Virus record (IMG/VR): IMGVR_UViG_3300047472_000125 | Location: 1 to 62,066 of that record | Origin: a virus | Direction: 5' to 3' (one strand) | Length of the DNA: 62,066 nucleotides | Part shown: positions 5,711-54,811 of the stretch, one piece after another | Numbering within the stretch: the first letter of the stretch is position 1 | How the letters are laid out: each line of letters opens with the position of its first letter | Made by a program: the position numbers and the translations under genes | The notes under the pieces: generated by a model | Databases searched by the model: none | Seen by the model: the letters and a program-made list of their open reading frames with translations, nothing else | Told to the model about the DNA's origin: nothing

Positions 5711-5936
5711 AGCTATTTTCTCCTTCGAAGCTGACAAGATGGCCGATGATGCTGCCGCAGTGGCGGCAATCGAAGGCCAGATTGTTGAGCAAGCCGCTTT
5801 CGGCTAGCTCCTCCAAGTCGCTTGGCACTCGCATCCACGTCGGAAGCGCCAACACCTTTTCCTTCTCCCTCATGCAGTTCTCGCAACGGATTTGAAGCCG
5901 GATCGCCGGCGCGCTCTTCAGTGCTGCACAACCCAT
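5703..5936 (-). CDS. Zinc-finger-like hypothetical protein, 77 aa
   Basis: Contains CENC (about 18-21) and CRHC (about 57-60), a four-Cys set suited to a zinc ribbon. A clear AAGGAG precedes the ATG. It is the first gene of a two-gene leftward unit inside the immunity region, divergent from the rightward early operon. It overlaps the next start by eight bases. Confidence 0.75.
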   Translation of the reverse strand: MGCAALKSAPAIRLQIRCENCMREKEKVLALPTWMRVPSDLEELAESGLLNNLAFDCRHCGSIIGHLVSFEGENSYE

Positions 5937-6002
5937 TTTTGTTCTCCTTACGTTCTATTGAAGCCAGAACGCGAGCCCTGAGTCGAGTCGGAAAATGCAT
6001 AT

Positions 6003-6055
6003 GGAAAATAAATCCAGAAAGTATTTGACTGGCCGATAAATTGGATTTATTGTCC
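6003..6055. promoter_or_regulatory. Two repressor operators in the rightward promoter region
   Basis: GGAAAATAAATCC (6003-6015) matches the operator at 4637-4649 at 12 of 13 positions. GGATTTATTGTCC (6043-6055) matches its reverse complement at 11 of 13. The second site overlaps the -10 box of the rightward promoter. The repressor thus probably shuts off both the cro/leftward and the recombination/rightward operons. Confidence 0.7.
6025..6053 (+). promoter_or_regulatory. Rightward early promoter
   Basis: TTGACT (6025-6030), a 17-bp spacer and TATTGT (6048-6053) resemble a sigma-70 promoter. It reads into the 6106 gene and the whole rightward operon. The -10 is covered by an operator site, which supports repression in the lysogen. 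Confidence 0.65.
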
Positions 6056-6105
6056 AACTCAACTGATCAACGAAGCGCCACCGGCGATGAGGATGGAGAC
6101 GGAAG

Positions 6106-6429
6106 ATGGGAAATCATGACGTAGGAAGAGGAATGGCAGCGGCAGCCAAGGTGTTTTGGTTGACGAAGGGCCGCGGCGACGAAGTCAGCCAGGAACTCGC
6201 GCTCAAGGTTCTTGACGCGATGGCCGAAGATTATGTCGGAGCCGACGCTGAGTTCGATGACGAGCTCGATACTGAAACCGATCTGAGCGAGTTGGTCGCC
6301 ATCGCGTTCAACGCTTCCGACAAAGCCCGCGGCTTCCTCAAGGGTGAGGATGATGAAGACGAGACTTGCTACGATGAGTGGTACGCGACCGTCTATCGCC
6401 CCTTCAGAGAACGCTACCGTTTTTGCTGA
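6106..6429 (+). CDS. Hypothetical acidic protein, 107 aa
   Basis: First gene of the rightward operon, with GGAGACGGAAG before the ATG. The protein is strongly acidic in its middle (EFDDELDTETDLSE) and near the C-terminus. Acidic first early proteins of phages are sometimes DNA mimics or host takeover factors, but nothing here proves that. The family is not recognised. Confidence 0.7.
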   Translation: MGNHDVGRGMAAAAKVFWLTKGRGDEVSQELALKVLDAMAEDYVGADAEFDDELDTETDLSELVAIAFNASDKARGFLKGEDDEDETCYDEWYATVYRPFRERYRFC

Positions 6430-6493
6430 TCGCCTTCGGCATCCCCTTTGAACACAGGGGATATCGAAAGTGATCAACGCGAAGGAGCGCAGA

Positions 6494-6811
6494 ATGAACA
6501 TCTTCCCTGATTTTGAATCGATCGAGCGGCGCAGAGATGAATGGCGCAAAACCGCCAAGCAGGAGTTTGTTCCTGGGATCGACCCAGCGGAACTCAAGCC
6601 CGGTATGCGGATCACTATTTCCCCAAATCTCATGATCCTCGACAGAAGCTACACCCGCGACATTCACACGGTAATTGCTGTGAATGCTTCACACGTACAG
6701 ACGCGCATAAACGATGGATATCACAAGAGCCCCATCCTCTTGGCGGTGCACGAGCATCATTTTTACGACGCGTCTTCCTTCTCCGACGAATCCGAAACCA
6801 AGGAGACCTGA
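6494..6811 (+). CDS. Hypothetical protein, 105 aa
   Basis: Start set at 6494 because AAGGAG lies eight bases upstream; an in-frame ATG at 6470 has none. The C-terminal half is predicted beta-rich. No family is recognised. It stands as the second gene of the rightward early unit. Confidence 0.7.
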   Translation: MNIFPDFESIERRRDEWRKTAKQEFVPGIDPAELKPGMRITISPNLMILDRSYTRDIHTVIAVNASHVQTRINDGYHKSPILLAVHEHHFYDASSFSDESETKET

Positions 6812-6869
6812 TCGGGCTTCGGCATGGTCCCTCGGGGCCATTTCGAAATCGATCTACGAGGACGGTTCG

Positions 6870-7127
6870 ATGCAGCATTTCAAAAATATCTCGACGGAAG
6901 CATCGCGGCGTGACGGCCGCTGGAGCGCAGCCCGAACCCTCGCCGACTGTGATCGGTACATGGCGATCGAGGCCCAGAACGCCGCGCGCCGCTGCAGCCA
7001 GAGCATGATCGACAACGCATGGAAGGGTTTCTCCTTCCTCCGTTCCGTCGAGGCCGCTCGCGCCGAGCATCACCACTATTCCCGCACCATTCTCGGCATC
7101 ACCGAAGCCGACCAGCTTTATTCGTAA
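6870..7127 (+). CDS. Hypothetical protein, 85 aa
   Basis: Start at 6870 (MQHFKNIS) with GAGGAC upstream. The frame is open further back, but that part overlaps the previous gene. Helical, Ala/Arg-rich, unrecognised. Confidence 0.65.
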   Translation: MQHFKNISTEASRRDGRWSAARTLADCDRYMAIEAQNAARRCSQSMIDNAWKGFSFLRSVEAARAEHHHYSRTILGITEADQLYS

Positions 7128-7138
7128 GGGGAACGAAC

Positions 7139-7429
7139 ATGAACAACGAAACCACATTCAAGGCCAGAGCGCTTGCGGAATCGATCGGTCGCGAACTGAC
7201 GATCGCCGCTGCCTTCGCCGGCAAGCATGATCCTGAACTGAATTACGACGTCAATTGGCACCACGGCCATGCTCGCGAGGAATTCGAAAAGCTCGCCGGA
7301 CTGCTTGGATATTCGGTTGCGCGCCTTGATCCGATGATGGGCCACAACGCTGCATCTCGCGAGCCCACCGTCTTCCAGTACCGAGATAACATGCCGATGG
7401 GGTTTGCAAAGGGAGCTTCGCTGTCATGA
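7139..7429 (+). CDS. Hypothetical protein, 96 aa
   Basis: Start at 7139 (MNNETTFK) with AAGGGGAA upstream. Mostly helical, with no recognised domain. The stop overlaps the next gene's start by four bases. Confidence 0.7.
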   Translation: MNNETTFKARALAESIGRELTIAAAFAGKHDPELNYDVNWHHGHAREEFEKLAGLLGYSVARLDPMMGHNAASREPTVFQYRDNMPMGFAKGASLS

Positions 7430-7794
7430 ACAAGGATCGCATTTTGGCACTTGCTGACTTGGTCGAGAGGCAGCCGCACTCCGATTACTATGCCGATGCT
7501 GGATTCAATATGGAAACATATATCCACAAATGCGGCACGCCATCGTGCATCGCGGGCTGGGCTATTTTCACCTTCGGGGGAAGATCAGATCTCGATTGCG
7601 CATCAGATCGAGATACTGAAAATCGGGACGCCGGGGAATTGCTGGGGATTGGCGAAGAGCAATCGTACGCATTGTTTCAGCCGCTTCACCTTGAAATCCC
7701 TCTCCGGAAGATCACTCCGAAGCAGTCCGCCGCCACCCTCCGTCACCTTGCAGAAACCGGTGAAGTAGACTGGTCGATCGGCGGTGCAGCATGA
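7426..7794 (+). CDS. Hypothetical protein with CGTPSCIAGW motif, 122 aa
   Basis: Contains the KCGTPSCIAGWA segment (about residues 36-46) found in a widespread group of small phage and bacterial proteins of unknown role; the two cysteines may bind metal or form a structural pair. It is coupled to both neighbours by four-base overlaps. Confidence 0.75.
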   Translation: MNKDRILALADLVERQPHSDYYADAGFNMETYIHKCGTPSCIAGWAIFTFGGRSDLDCASDRDTENRDAGELLGIGEEQSYALFQPLHLEIPLRKITPKQSAATLRHLAETGEVDWSIGGAA

Positions 7795-24408: not shown

Positions 24409-24648
24409 TTAGGCGGCAGGGGGAACGTAATCGGGGTCGCCGGCCTGCGGCGCATTCAGCCGGTCGCGGAATGCCTGGAGAGCGGCTTCGGTGTCCTGGC
24501 GCTCCTGAACCGTCAGCGTCTCCTTCTCGACAACGATCCGGTAGAACTGCTGGACGTAGGGAGCGACTTCTTCGCCATACTCGATCGCCATCTTGGCGAG
24601 GTTGGCGACGATTTCCGCATCGGCGATGATGGTGGCGAGATCGGTCAT
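24409..24648 (-). CDS. Hypothetical protein, 79 aa
   Basis: Helical, acidic, no membrane segment. Sits between the lipoprotein and holin-like genes and overlaps the lipoprotein stop by four bases. Possibly a lysis regulator or simply a virion-associated protein; unrecognised. Confidence 0.6.
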   Translation of the reverse strand: MTDLATIIADAEIVANLAKMAIEYGEEVAPYVQQFYRIVVEKETLTVQERQDTEAALQAFRDRLNAPQAGDPDYVPPAA

Positions 24649-47739: not shown

Positions 47740-49236
47740 TTATTGGCCGCCCATCGCGGCCATGGCATGCTCTAGTGAGCCCGATGCGTATTCAGGTTTG
47801 GCCGGGTCCGGCTTTTCGATTGCGGATTCCTGCGCTTGCCGCTCCATCAGATCGAAGAGACCGGAATTCGACATAGCGACGAGAAGTGCGTTGAATGCGC
47901 GGGATGTGCTGTCCGCTGCGTCATCATGCTTTGCTTCAGGGAAGCCTTCCAGGGCACTAAACCACGCGTCATTCCACTGGCCTCGTACGACCAAAACGTT
48001 CCCCGCTTCCGCCTGCGCTGAAAATGGGCTGAACCGAGTGATCTTATCTCCCGATTCCGGGGTCGCTTTTACGGTGAAACCTGCGAGAAGTTTCGTCAGA
48101 CTTGCAATCTGCGACTTTCCGGCCTGACCCGGATCCTGCGGGAGAGATATTTGGGTTTCGGTCCCGTCGGCAGTCGCGGTGTTTTTTATCAGAGTCTCGA
48201 CACCCGAAGGCGTAGCATATGTCTCTACATGGTGACCAACAACGTAAGTTCCGTCTGGTAGGCGCCCGATCTTCGTTCCCGATGTGGCATCTGGGTCATT
48301 ACTCTCTGTCTTCGGCGTTGCCGCCAGGTCCCATCCCCTCGCCCATTTCACCCCAGCCGGCACTTCGTCGATGACACGGCACCAACCGCGCTGGAACAAC
48401 AGTCCAGCAGCCGGCCTAATCTTCCAGTTGCCGCCAAGAAGGCGCTCTCGCTCGACGGTCGGCTGCGCCATCAGGTTTGCGAGGTAACCTGGGTCCGCTG
48501 CCATCAGCATTGCGTTATCGCTGAGCTTAGCCGGGATGAAGGTCACAGACTTCGGCGGGATAGGGTCGCCGGTGAGCGGATTGACGTGGTGCGACAACTC
48601 CTCTGGACTGCCTGCCCAAATTATCGAGTCGCCGATGCGGATGAACCAACGAAGGATGCCTGCCCGCTCCGGAATGGAAAGCCCGCTCTCTTGGTCAATC
48701 CACCAGGCAATAAACTCAGCGACCCAACTGTCCGCATCAGGATTGCAGGTTGCCCGTACATAGGGGCGAACCCCACACATCGAGCGGTTACGGCTTAGCA
48801 TGTACCAAAACTGCTTCGCGCTGAAATGGGTCAGCTCATCGAAGCAAATTAGCGGGATCTGTGATCCCTGCCAGTTATAGATCGTCTTCTCGTGCTCAAG
48901 GTGAGCGAACGAAACGCCGGCGCCCGATGGGAACGTCCAACTCAAGTCCGGCGCCGATCGCGGGTTCGCGCTCAGATGTGGATAGAGTTTTTCGCTTTCG
49001 TCCCACAATCCGCCTTCATTGCGAACCTGCGTCAGATTGCGACGGAAGAACACCGCACCAAACGCCGGGTTGCTGACATGGCGCAGCGGCTCCATGAGGA
49101 GTGCCCAAGTTTTGCCGCCGCCGGCAGACCCGCCGTAGATCGCGATATCAGCCGGAGACGACAGGAAAGTCGTTTGTGGCCCGGGTTGCGGCCGGATGAT
49201 GGTCTGGGCTGCCGCGCCCTTCTCAGCTCCTGCCAT
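47740..49236 (-). CDS. terL: Terminase large subunit, 498 aa
   Basis: Walker A at residues 35-43 (GGSAGGGKT), Walker B at 129-134 (LICFDE), and a C-terminal RNase H-like nuclease with acidic residues in RGWDLAATPK, LPQDPG and KHDDAAD. Powers DNA packaging and cuts concatemers. Overlaps the small-subunit gene by 14 bases. Confidence 0.93.
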   Translation of the reverse strand: MAGAEKGAAAQTIIRPQPGPQTTFLSSPADIAIYGGSAGGGKTWALLMEPLRHVSNPAFGAVFFRRNLTQVRNEGGLWDESEKLYPHLSANPRSAPDLSWTFPSGAGVSFAHLEHEKTIYNWQGSQIPLICFDELTHFSAKQFWYMLSRNRSMCGVRPYVRATCNPDADSWVAEFIAWWIDQESGLSIPERAGILRWFIRIGDSIIWAGSPEELSHHVNPLTGDPIPPKSVTFIPAKLSDNAMLMAADPGYLANLMAQPTVERERLLGGNWKIRPAAGLLFQRGWCRVIDEVPAGVKWARGWDLAATPKTESNDPDATSGTKIGRLPDGTYVVGHHVETYATPSGVETLIKNTATADGTETQISLPQDPGQAGKSQIASLTKLLAGFTVKATPESGDKITRFSPFSAQAEAGNVLVVRGQWNDAWFSALEGFPEAKHDDAADSTSRAFNALLVAMSNSGLFDLMERQAQESAIEKPDPAKPEYASGSLEHAMAAMGGQ

Positions 49237-49687
49237 TGTCGGGTAACTGAAATATGGTCACCGGCGAGACTGGCGTAGGCAGATCTTTGCCGTCCTTGCC
49301 CGTGAGTTCGCGCCGGTTGGTGTAGACACCTCCGGATTCCTCTGCCGCCTGCTTATAGAGCGTGGCTGCCAGACCCATGTTACCTTGCGTCTCTGCCTTG
49401 TCGGCCATGCGCTGCAATGCGCGCAATCTCACCGCACGGTGACTAATTGCTATGGTCGCGGTATCCTCAAGGAACGTCTTGCGGGTTTCCTCGAATAGCG
49501 ACTTCCATCGGACCGAAAGATTTCGACCTGCTTTCTTGGTCGGATCGTAAGCCTCGATCGACTGAGGCGTCAGAGTGACCGAAAATTCCTTCCTGAGTGC
49601 CGCAGCAACGACAGTCGGAGAATCGAAGCAGGCGAGCGATTGAACCACAAAGGTTTGCTGCTCACGGTCAAGTTTCGCGTTTGCCAT
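49223..49687 (-). CDS. terS: Terminase small subunit, DUF2280-type, 154 aa
   Basis: The pattern ACFDSPTVVAAALRKEF, YDPTKKAGRNLSVRW and ALQRMADKAETQGNMGLAATL is that of DUF2280 proteins, which precede terL and recognise the packaging site. N-terminal HTH, C-terminal helical oligomerisation domain. Confidence 0.85.
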   Translation of the reverse strand: MANAKLDREQQTFVVQSLACFDSPTVVAAALRKEFSVTLTPQSIEAYDPTKKAGRNLSVRWKSLFEETRKTFLEDTATIAISHRAVRLRALQRMADKAETQGNMGLAATLYKQAAEESGGVYTNRRELTGKDGKDLPTPVSPVTIFQLPDNGRS

Positions 49688-52342: not shown

Positions 52343-52585
52343 TTATGCGGCGCGGTTCTGGCGGCTTTCCTTCGTCACGCCCATGTGAAGCTCAAGAGCA
52401 AGCAGGACGCCGGAAGTCGTAAGCCAATTCCAGCCATCGCCACGCTCGGCGTAGCCCTTGTCGATGAGATCGGAACGGCCGGACTTCGAAGGCAGATCGC
52501 CATCCCATGTTGGGCCATTGCGAAACATGCACCAGAGGGTATCGCGCTCGGCACCAGATAGGCCGGTGGGGCATTCGATTTTCAT
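52343..52585 (-). CDS. Hypothetical protein, 80 aa (paralogue of 16947-17207)
   Basis: Shares GPTWDGDLxSKSGR, a following LIDKGYAERGDGW and LTTSG pattern with the 86-aa protein near the integrase. AAGGAAG precedes the ATG. First protein gene after tRNA-Thr, probably cotranscribed with it. Confidence 0.7.
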   Translation of the reverse strand: MKIECPTGLSGAERDTLWCMFRNGPTWDGDLPSKSGRSDLIDKGYAERGDGWNWLTTSGVLLALELHMGVTKESRQNRAA

Positions 52586-52606
52586 GGCTGCTTCCTTCAG
52601 TGAAAT

Positions 52607-52682
52607 TGGAGCCGGCAGTGGGACTTGAACTCACAGCCTTCCCCTTACAAAGGGGCTGCTCTACCAACTGAGCTGTACCGGC
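52607..52682 (-). tRNA. tRNA-Thr (anticodon TGT), CCA encoded
   Basis: Cloverleaf of 76 nt: acceptor GCCGGTA/TGCCGGC, D-arm GCTC/GAGC, anticodon loop TTTGTAA (TGT, reads ACA), T-loop TTCAAGT, and a genomically encoded CCA. Oddities are C at position 8 instead of T, a G-A mismatch at 27-43, an A-C mismatch in the T-stem and a T discriminator. It may still be functional. It immediately follows a ~690-nt structured non-coding region on the same strand. Confidence 0.85.
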
Positions 52683-52683
52683 G

Positions 52684-53376
52684 GAATGAATAAGCCCCGC
52701 CTCCGGTGAAGTCCGGTAGACGGGGCTCTGGCGCTATTGAAATGGTGCCGGTCTTCGATCGCATTCGCTACTAACCGGATGAGTGAGCTAACCAGGCTTC
52801 GATCCGCCAACTGTGGCCTCACCGCTTATCTTCTGTCCTCTTGAGAGGAATGAGTATCGAGAAGGCCAGACGTTACCCTGGCTATTGAGATTCGCCCCGT
52901 TGTAGTATTGGCCGATGAACTTAATCTCGGCACAGCCGGACGGTTGCCTAGGACCGTTTCTCTGTCTCGTCTCTCGCCCGCGTTCGCGTGTTCCCTTCCA
53001 CGCCGCTTCTCGATAAGGACTGGAGGTGGACCTTGAGCTAGGCTACCCACCACGCGCCCGGTTGACGAGCTGCGCTTTTCCAGAAGCATGGACGGCGACC
53101 GCTGGGCCGCTTGAGATGTTCGAACTAAGCGTCTGCTGCTAACCCAGCATAGCTCCGAACATCATCACCGTCTCGATCTCGTATGCCTTTCGGCAATTGA
53201 TTGCCCTAGTCGGACCCGAAGGCAGCGTTCCTCACGAGGACTTCCAAACGCTATTATCCAACTGCGGCTATATTCGGAGGCCGTCTCCTACGATCTGAAA
53301 GGCTCAGGCCACCATCCAATTCCACGTTAAGGATGATGCTTTGCCGCGTGGACTTAGCCCCGCCTTCCAGAATTCT
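52684..53376 (-). ncRNA. Large structured non-coding RNA candidate (~690 nt) upstream of tRNA-Thr
   Basis: Nearly 700 bases without a credible gene, in an otherwise gene-packed genome. The minus-strand sequence contains many closely packed helices: an H-type pseudoknot (53311-53351), an 8-bp stem 53115-53122/53156-53163 with an inner hairpin, AGCGTT-type stem 53224-53229/53247-53252, a GAAA tetraloop hairpin 53184-53195, and at least six more stems down to a terminator-like hairpin at 52693-52727. Size, phage setting and tRNA adjacency recall GOLLD and ROOL RNAs, but I cannot match a consensus; it may be a new class. Confidence 0.6.
52693..52727 (-). terminator. Nested hairpin at the 3' end of the ncRNA candidate
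   Basis: Outer stem AGCCCCG/CGGGGCT and inner CCGG/CCGG, followed on the minus strand by TTATTCATT. It separates the structured region from tRNA-Thr and could be a terminator or a processing point. Confidence 0.55.
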
Positions 53377-53808
53377 TTACGCCGCCTTCGCATCCCGCCA
53401 TTCGGCGAAGGACTTTTCGAGAGCGGCCTTATCGCCTTCGCCGTACTTGTGGACGAGACGCCAGACGTGATCCCAATTGGGAGACGTGATCGCCGCGCCT
53501 TCGACCTGAGCATAAGTCCGGCCGCGAAGGAAGCCGTAGGCAACGTGGGCGGCGCGTGCTTCGTCACGAACATCATAGATGCGGTGATGACGAAGGCCCC
53601 AGAACGCCAACATGGCTTTGTCCGATGGCTTTACGAGCTGGCGCTCCATCTTCGCGCGCTCTGGCACCGTCAGTTCGTTCGACTTGCGAAGACCGCGCCG
53701 GATCCTGACGCGGGCTCGGCAACCGATATTGCACTTGCGCTCTTCCTGACGGATCATCTGCGCTTCGGCTGCCAGGCTTTTTATTTTCACTTTCAGATAA
53801 ACTTTCAT
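53377..53808 (-). CDS. Hypothetical basic protein, 143 aa
   Basis: Start at 53808 with GGAATAAG upstream. Strongly basic N-terminal half with a CNIGCRARVRIRRG stretch, then a helical domain ending in EKSFAEWRDAKAA. Adjacent to and upstream of the ncRNA candidate, so an RNA-binding partner role is conceivable. Family not recognised. Confidence 0.65.
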   Translation of the reverse strand: MKVYLKVKIKSLAAEAQMIRQEERKCNIGCRARVRIRRGLRKSNELTVPERAKMERQLVKPSDKAMLAFWGLRHHRIYDVRDEARAAHVAYGFLRGRTYAQVEGAAITSPNWDHVWRLVHKYGEGDKAALEKSFAEWRDAKAA

Positions 53809-54124
53809 GATCTTATTCCATCGTTGAACCTCTTGCGAATGCGATCGAGGTTGACGACGGCGGACCTGTGGAAAGCTACTTCATCTGATCTTCTCCGGTT
53901 TGAATGGCCCCTCTGCGGGTACTTGAAACCCGTCTTTCGATTTTAGAGATCGACGCCTCACCGCGAGGCTCCAGAGGGATTAACTTGATTTCAGTGAAAG
54001 GGCACAATGATGGCTTGCATTTCGGCGATATCCCGAAACCATTGAGAACCGGGACGAATCCCCGCCGTTCCGCCAAATCAGTCGTGTCGATATTTAACTG
54101 ATTTGGCGTTAAATGCAACTGCCA
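53809..54124. other. Non-coding regulatory stretch between the NusG-like gene and the 53377 gene
   Basis: About 316 bp with only doubtful frames (a TTG-started 80-aa frame and an antisense 65-aa frame). It holds overlapping inverted repeats at 54071-54108, listed separately. It lies at the border between early/replication genes and the late block, so a promoter, operator or anti-termination site is likely here. Confidence 0.5.
54071..54108. repeat. 12-bp perfect inverted repeat, with an overlapping alternative dyad
   Basis: CGCCAAATCAGT (54071-54082) pairs with ACTGATTTGGCG (54097-54108) across 14 nt. On the minus strand an alternative dyad ATTTAAC...GTTAAAT shares one arm, so the two hairpins exclude each other, as in attenuators. 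Only 17 bp downstream of the NusG-like gene stop. Confidence 0.6.
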
Positions 54125-54811
54125 TTATGCGGCCGCCAACAGTTCGCTGTTGAGCGGGATCGAAATCGTGCCGGCGATATCAAATTCGGCAATCAATTTC
54201 TGTAGTCTCGTATCTTTCTTCGCCTTTTTCCTCAACTCGCGACGAGCTTGGACAGATCTGCGATCGAACTCCACTTCGGAAGCTGCCTCGACAGACCGAA
54301 CGGCCATGATATCGAGGAAGTCGACATTCAGGGGCTTGCCGTCCTGATTTGCTACGATGCCAGATACCCCGGGCGTTGCCTCAAGCTTCGGGAAGCTATG
54401 TGGGTTGCAGATGAAGACGTAGCCTACCATGAGTGCGAACCGCCTGACCTTATAGAGATCGGTATGGCGGCGATCACGGATAAGCCGCTTTTCTGATGGC
54501 ATGTAGTAGGTGAAGCCGGCTTCCTTGAGCGCATGCTCGATCGCCGAGACAGACGGATTGAGGCTCGGGACGATCTTGTAGCCCTTGCCACGGACCTTCC
54601 CATTCTTTCCCGGCTCGGTCGCCTCCACCTCGAACAGACGGCGCGGCTGCTGGGCGCCGGGCTCCGTCCGGATCACGAACCAGTCGAAGCCGCCTTCTTT
54701 GCCTTCTCGCCTGCGGCTGATCATCTCATTGAAAGCTGCTTCCTTGTCTGCATTGACCTTGCGCTGTTCCGCCATCTGGAGTTTGCGCTGTTGTTTCGAT
54801 ATCGCCGCCAT
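54125..54811 (-). CDS. NusG-like (NGN-domain) transcription factor, 228 aa
   Basis: Residues 43-51 (DWFVIRTEP), the AGFTYYMPSEKR segment (98-109), RRFALMVGYVFIC (123-135) and TPGVSGIVANQDGKPLNV (146-163) match, in order, the NGN domain of NusG/RfaH, including the RNA polymerase contact surface. The C-terminal ~50 residues are basic with no clear KOW domain. It probably modifies elongation or termination. It is the last gene before the late block and intrinsic terminators, so a late anti-terminator role is attractive. Confidence 0.75.
   Translation of the reverse strand: MAAISKQQRKLQMAEQRKVNADKEAAFNEMISRRREGKEGGFDWFVIRTEPGAQQPRRLFEVEATEPGKNGKVRGKGYKIVPSLNPSVSAIEHALKEAGFTYYMPSEKRLIRDRRHTDLYKVRRFALMVGYVFICNPHSFPKLEATPGVSGIVANQDGKPLNVDFLDIMAVRSVEAASEVEFDRRSVQARRELRKKAKKDTRLQKLIAEFDIAGTISIPLNSELLAAA

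Follow-up and report, generated by a model that had tools for sequence, protein, structure and literature searches.

Two covarying, pseudoknotted RNA modules in a structured-RNA locus of Rhizobiaceae phages and prophages

The window, which is the whole stretch of DNA analysed (a virus record of 62,066 bases), carries on its minus strand, between the stop of a 143-aa ORF and tRNA-Thr(TGT) (53376-52684), what comparison with related phages shows to be a real structured-RNA locus with two RNA families new to Rfam, M1 and M3. Both families are covarying and pseudoknotted, both occupy one fixed place in the genomes and they are rearranged there like building blocks; M1, at 95 nt, is small enough for easy study. 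As had been predicted, the region is without a credible gene and holds short overlapping ORFs only, and the tRNA-Thr adjoins it. The features of the locus and of its surroundings are listed in Table 1.

Table 1. Features of the RNA locus and neighbouring genes, in the order of the minus strand
Feature	Position	Strand	Remarks
NusG-like antiterminator gene, 228 aa	54125..54811	-	Upstream of the RNA; Pfam PF02357, 26.2 bits (cut-off 22.2)
143-aa basic protein	53377..53808	-	Between the NusG-like gene and the RNA; without Pfam or PHROG match
M3 pseudoknot and branched domain	53198-53288	-	34 sequences, covariation
M3a, H-type pseudoknot GGAG[ACGGC]CUCC...GCCG	53264..53288	-	In front of the M3 core
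M3 core	53198..53265	-	Covariance model R3, 70.7 bits
M3 core stem GUUGG/CCGAC	53262-53258/53213-53209	-	
M3 core hairpin AGCGUU/AACGCU	53252-53247/53229-53224	-	Covarying; conserved loop AAGUCCUCGUGA
M3 core tetraloop hairpin CC-UUCG-GG	53222-53215	-	Followed by CUAGGGCA
M6, GCC-GAAA-GGC hairpin	53184..53195	-	Followed by ACGAGATC; few sequences
M1 pseudoknotted RNA module	53084..53178	-	Covariance models R1/R2, 82.9-89.2 bits; covariation
M1 P1 (outer helix)	53172-53165/53098-53091	-	
M1 P2	53163-53154/53124-53115	-	
M1 P3	53153-53148/53140-53135	-	
M1 pseudoknot CUGGG with CCCAG	53147-53143/53106-53102	-	
Stretch between M1 and M2, without homologue	52867..53083	-	No match in the homologue set; drawn helices unsupported, at chance level
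M2, GCCTTCTCGATACTCATTCCTCTCAAGAGGA, 31 nt	52836..52866	-	93% identity with the sequence immediately 3' of M1 in L008 and L031
3' hairpin AGCCCCGUCU...GGCGGGGCU	52693..52727	-	Followed by UAUUCAUU; terminator-like
tRNA-Thr (TGT)	52607..52682	-	L100 and L112 also have tRNA-Thr(TGT) shortly after M1
DUF2280 gene	49223-49687	-	Downstream, packaging side
Terminase large subunit	47740-49236	-	Downstream

Structure and covariation of the two modules

When the whole window was compared with Rfam by cmscan at the gathering score, only tRNA reached the threshold. With E values of up to 10 the stretch 52500-54150 gave nothing like GOLLD, ROOL, OLE or HEARO, tRNAs being the only credible matches, and 13 homologous loci searched at the gathering score gave no GOLLD or ROOL match. 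The original prediction of a structured RNA beside a phage tRNA that is neither GOLLD nor ROOL nor any other Rfam family is supported in this respect. Complementarity proved to be cheap, as 30 of 200 shuffles had a perfect inverted repeat equal to the longest one found here (10 bp, 53015/52864). The folding of the whole region was mildly unusual (z = -2.6, 20 shuffles) and a thermodynamic scan along the strand in 150-nt windows was unremarkable, without a peak at the RNA. Energy was dropped as evidence for this reason, thermodynamics alone being insufficient to reveal the RNA, and with complementarity so cheap and the folding energy so mild it was comparative evidence that had to decide.

The plasmid search with the full region as query returned tRNA matches only, and no relatives were found through the 143-aa protein. 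Apart from tRNA, the only strong match in a sensitive BLAST search of phage sequences was an unannotated stretch of Rhizobium phage RHph_Y1_10 (MN988487), in which M1 is situated at 24,534-24,615. The sequence common to this stretch and the window suggested P1, P2 and P3 with a loop CUGGGNU, and a CCCAG downstream that would form the pseudoknot. Further members of M1 were collected by pattern scans and a covariance model over IMG/VR contigs and Rhizobiaceae genomes; of two exact scans, with a 21-mer and a 15-mer, the latter returned about 90 matches, mostly chance, and a match was retained only if it had the complete pseudoknot. In 17 sequences 15 of the 29 pairs of M1 were changed on both sides, and the 44 compensatory cells compare with 12.0±2.8 in shuffles of the same set, none of 500 being as high. 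Controls in which the pairing was slid had far fewer than 44. Moreover the loop pairing itself covaries, CUGGG/CCCAG becoming CCGGG/CCCGG in L105 and L108. A divergent M1-like element of 22 bits was also observed in L145 (835-945, plus strand); its pseudoknot letters are apparently CCGGA/UCCGG and, if genuine, would represent a third M1 pairing type.

M3 was discovered through a weak match of positions 53266-53187 of the window to L098 and L112, from which a second pattern scan led to 19 further loci. Across the loci its core consists of a stem GUYGG/CCGAC around the hairpin with the AAGUCCUCGUGA loop and a tetraloop hairpin (GAAA, GCAA, GUAA or UUCG), and the 34 sequences gave 40 compensatory cells against 11.8±2.1 in shuffles (0/500). 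M3a is present in the window and in 11 other loci. Its second stem is ACGGC/GCCGU, ACAGC/GCUGU or ACAAC/GUUGU, and in the first stem the window has GGAG/CUCC in place of GGCG/CGCC; the statistics are weaker here (6 cells against 1.6), only 12 similar sequences being at hand. The covariation counts rest on alignments partly fitted to the model, and relatedness inflates the shuffle contrasts, although the slid controls and the variety of the changes argue against relatedness as the explanation.

The helices drawn originally are each complementary letter for letter. Out of eleven, those at 53115-53122/53156-53163 and 53224-53229/53247-53252 and the GAAA hairpin at 53184-53195 recur in homologues, whereas the remaining ones, apart from the 3' hairpin, have 4-5 bp and lie in sequence for which no homologue was found. 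The 5' pseudoknot (53351-53311) turned out to be at chance level, an equally good one being present in 50 of 300 shuffles, and the inner helix 53137-53140/53146-53149 competes with P3 and the pseudoknot of the M1 family. On the other hand P1 and the CUGGG/CCCAG pairing of M1 had been overlooked, as had the M3 pseudoknot. One RNA of 690 nt with the eleven helices as drawn is rejected, comparative support, with the covariation, covering about 215 nt; nor is a single RNA class of about 690 nt supported, M1 and M3 occurring apart and swapping order.

Distribution and mosaic build

In the sampled sets M1 and M3 recur in dozens of phages and prophages, which belong to Rhizobiaceae wherever the taxonomy is known. 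The genome counts of M1 are lower bounds because the scans score few candidates per genome: at least 7 of 398 sampled genomes in the family to which G001 belongs (the genome that includes Rhizobium freirei PRF 81) and, in an order-wide sample of 398 genomes, G001 only. M3 was found in 9/398 genomes of the family and in 1/298 order-wide, and also on a megaplasmid of Rhizobium sp. T1473.

As far as the compared sequences tell, the locus is a mosaic of modules rearranged between phages rather than one RNA. M1 is nearly alone between two genes in L099, L111, L078 and L118, M3 is found without M1 in most of L121-L151, and strong matches to both occur together in only four loci, the window, L098, L112 and L132. 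In the window M3 stands before M1, in the other three after it. Other recurrent blocks move too, for example one placed at +239, +664 and -197 relative to M1 in L008, L101 and L098, and the joint of M6 is found elsewhere with other stems (GCCC-AACA-GGGC and GAGGC-CUU-GCCUC), which is suggestive in view of the few sequences. The window, L100, L112 and some other loci have tRNAs as part of the array, most homologous loci being without tRNA. M1 and M2 are about 220 nt apart in the window and contiguous in L008 and L031, which suggests that 53083-52867 is probably a module that was inserted between them. Hairpins similar to the terminator-like stem-loop at 52693-52727 are found at the same place in L008, L031, L124 and others. 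A further block, GGAGCGTGGTGGCAGAG...GAAACCGATCAGTA, is common to L119, L125 and L139; it contains a GTGGCAGAGTGG motif resembling a D-arm and is perhaps a tRNA-derived module.

Genomic position and upstream proteins

In the loci with enough flank the modules lie on the coding strand, preceded by an early or replication-side gene and followed by genes for terminase, portal or tail. They are as close as 0.5 kb to the terminase large subunit in L099 and as far as 3.9 kb or more from it, the window being at 3.9 kb. Hairpins resembling intrinsic terminators were scored within 500 nt downstream in 8 of 40 loci, with 1.9 expected, and the 3' hairpin of the window is one of them. The scan for sigma-70 promoters was convincing in L105 only, where a near-consensus TTGACG-17-TATATA (shuffle p 0.01) is situated about 90 nt upstream of M1 and is followed by an apparent three-way junction and then M1. 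As a separate observation, L121 encodes in a single ORF (5894-7738, plus strand) a portal protein with a C-terminal Acb1 anti-CBASS domain (PF06381 and PF23474).

NusG paralogues (PF02357) are encoded shortly upstream in six lineages. Besides the window, these are L101 (25.8 bits), L106/L114 (62.7 in L106), L107 (55.2), L115 (42.7, with KOW) and L133 (51.2), and they were assigned by direct hmmscan, the six-frame NusG family search being insensitive (it missed the window's own gene). The families of the paralogues in the window, L115 and L133 are named transcription antiterminators in PHROGs, that of the window being PHROG 25909 'transcription antiterminator' (E 6e-46). The spacers that separate NusG from M1 in L106, L107 and L115 can also be aligned and show compensatory changes, in 3 sequences only. 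About a dozen other loci encode upstream a PHROG 37864-type helical protein with a conserved arginine-rich stretch at the C-terminus (e.g. NERRRQRLARQKAA), predicted as a separate C-terminal helix. Lambda N holds boxB RNA through an arginine-rich helix, and by analogy the tail of the PHROG 37864-type protein looks like this RNA-binding motif. In the remaining loci the upstream protein belongs to PHROG 15385, 6836 or 9306, or none was assigned.

Two further elements were observed in the window close to these genes. The gene at 53905-53978(-) resembles a tRNA and has a CUA (amber) anticodon. ARAGORN calls it tRNA-Pyl, it scores 47.3 bits with the Rfam tRNA model, and it is possibly a phage suppressor tRNA; in a mechanical count 6 of the 28 long ORFs of the window end in TAG. 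Just after the NusG-like ORF there is an inverted repeat GCCAAATCAGT...ACTGATTTGGC at 54109-54072(-), where the 150-nt window folds with z = -4.4, and the CAAATCAG...GTGATTT repeats of L133, L138 and L113 are related to it.

Possible roles and comparison with known systems

Since a NusG paralogue or an N-like arginine-rich protein is encoded just upstream, we favour, tentatively and at somewhat less than an even chance, a nascent-RNA antitermination leader for the late operon as the role of the M1/M3 locus. The constant place at the head of the late genes, the antiterminator-type partners and the terminator-like hairpins downstream point to it together. We infer leader transcription, binding and read-through in the following manner. 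The late (packaging and structural) operon would be transcribed with the locus as its structured leader, and this RNA would fold into its pseudoknotted modules during its synthesis. The modules would then dock on the transcribing RNA polymerase, either directly, in the manner of HK022 put, or with a phage regulator encoded upstream, which would be the NusG paralogue in this phage and the arginine-rich-tailed protein in many relatives. The polymerase could thus pass the terminator-like hairpin that closes the leader, as well as the terminators further downstream, and the late genes would be turned on, with the tRNAs as extra passengers on the leader transcript. A NusG paralogue working through a leader RNA is known, as outlined for LoaP (PMC12691694), and so is protein-free antitermination by nascent RNA, as outlined for put (PMC9378689).

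In favour of the leader, a specialised NusG paralogue or a putative RNA-binding partner is encoded nearby, position and strand in the loci examined would suit a structured RNA at the head of an operon and cotranscribed with it, and the place of the modules is constant whatever other modules are present, M1 alone sufficing in L099, L111, L078 and L118. Against it, a clear consensus promoter is restricted to L105 and a scored terminator to 8/40 loci, put and boxB are much simpler and less variable than these modules, and most of the phages encode upstream a protein that is not related to NusG. In addition, the core of the PHROG 37864 protein resembles sigma region 4 only weakly in its fold: the fold search gave no significant match, and sigma region 4 chains came up at E > 1 only. 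It is a more doubtful step to propose that Rhizobiaceae phages run their late genes through interchangeable pseudoknotted RNA modules and interchangeable proteins, as an undescribed modular class of antitermination. No report of the M1 or M3 modules was found in the open-licence literature, which given that scope is weak evidence of novelty.

The main and serious rival, which we regard as rather unlikely, is a stand-alone large noncoding RNA comparable to GOLLD and ROOL and made in the lytic phase, stable, possibly oligomeric and acting in trans on the host or the virion. The length of several hundred nt, the pseudoknots, the tRNA neighbours, the conserved and variable parts and the location in phages and prophages throughout can be explained in this way, and the window, with its tRNA-Thr, has the phage location near a tRNA that is known from GOLLD, although most homologous loci have no tRNA. 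The M1 loop, moreover, could kiss a second molecule rather than pair internally. In GOLLD the 3' region is conserved and the 5' region variable, and tRNAs are sometimes present in the linker (PMC12286853); with respect to this layout M1 is conserved with variable flanks and M3 lies on either side according to the phage. However, several phages retain M1 alone (about 95 nt), the order of the modules is not conserved, the place before the packaging genes is kept, and GOLLD and ROOL are unmatched in Rfam even at E 10.

An improbable alternative is that the modules are cis-acting mRNA elements that govern not the read-through by the polymerase but how the message of the first late gene is processed or translated, or how stable it is. 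This would suit L118 and L099, where M1 is followed immediately by a ribosome-binding site and a start codon, and L008 and L031, where a hairpin pairs a GAGGA-like sequence after M1, but the identity of the first downstream gene (hypothetical, minor tail Z or terminase) changes between phages, and other modules or tRNAs often intervene and leave it at a distance of hundreds of nt. That the inverted repeats act as DNA, as a packaging (pac/cos) or recombination site near the terminase, is very improbable in spite of the closeness to that gene: compensatory pairs, including those of the pseudoknots, and GNRA or UUCG tetraloops signal RNA, and the terminase distance varies, so a DNA packaging site was rejected. 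Chance structure in a decaying non-coding stretch would fit the mild folding energy and the chance level of most of the helices drawn earlier outside M1 and M3. It can hardly be reconciled with two independent modules in which the compensatory changes far outnumber those of shuffles and slid controls, and it is given next to no weight, being refuted for 53288-53084, a refutation that does not extend to 53083-52867 and 53376-53305.

The known systems resemble the locus in different respects. GOLLD and ROOL, phage-borne RNAs of unknown function near tRNAs (PMC12286853), share with it the phage or prophage location, the tRNA neighbours, the length of several hundred nt, the pseudoknots and the combination of conserved and variable parts, but they have no sequence or covariance-model match to it, and here the modules are small, independent, of changing order and tied to the start of the packaging genes, M1 standing alone at about 95 nt. 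HK022 put, as outlined in PMC9378689, is likewise a short structured phage RNA early in a transcription unit that acts on the polymerase while nascent, as is proposed here, but it is a lambdoid early-operon element of other structure; M1 and M3 are pseudoknotted and stand beside NusG-like or arginine-rich proteins. LoaP, according to the outline in PMC12691694, offers a NusG paralogue beside its operon, a structured leader RNA and the read-through of terminators expected here, although it is a bacterial regulator, and the NusG paralogues considered here, whose binding is a prediction, are phage genes present in part of the loci only. Lambda N/nut (boxB) is similar in the arginine-rich RNA-binding-like helix of the regulator and the structured RNA in the transcript, and differs in that the arginine-rich segment is here at the C-terminus of an unrelated helical protein and that late rather than early genes follow. 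If the modules are antitermination leaders, they would extend the principle of put, N and LoaP to a large group of soil phages; if they are trans-acting RNAs, they would be a compact modular relative in the style of GOLLD and ROOL.
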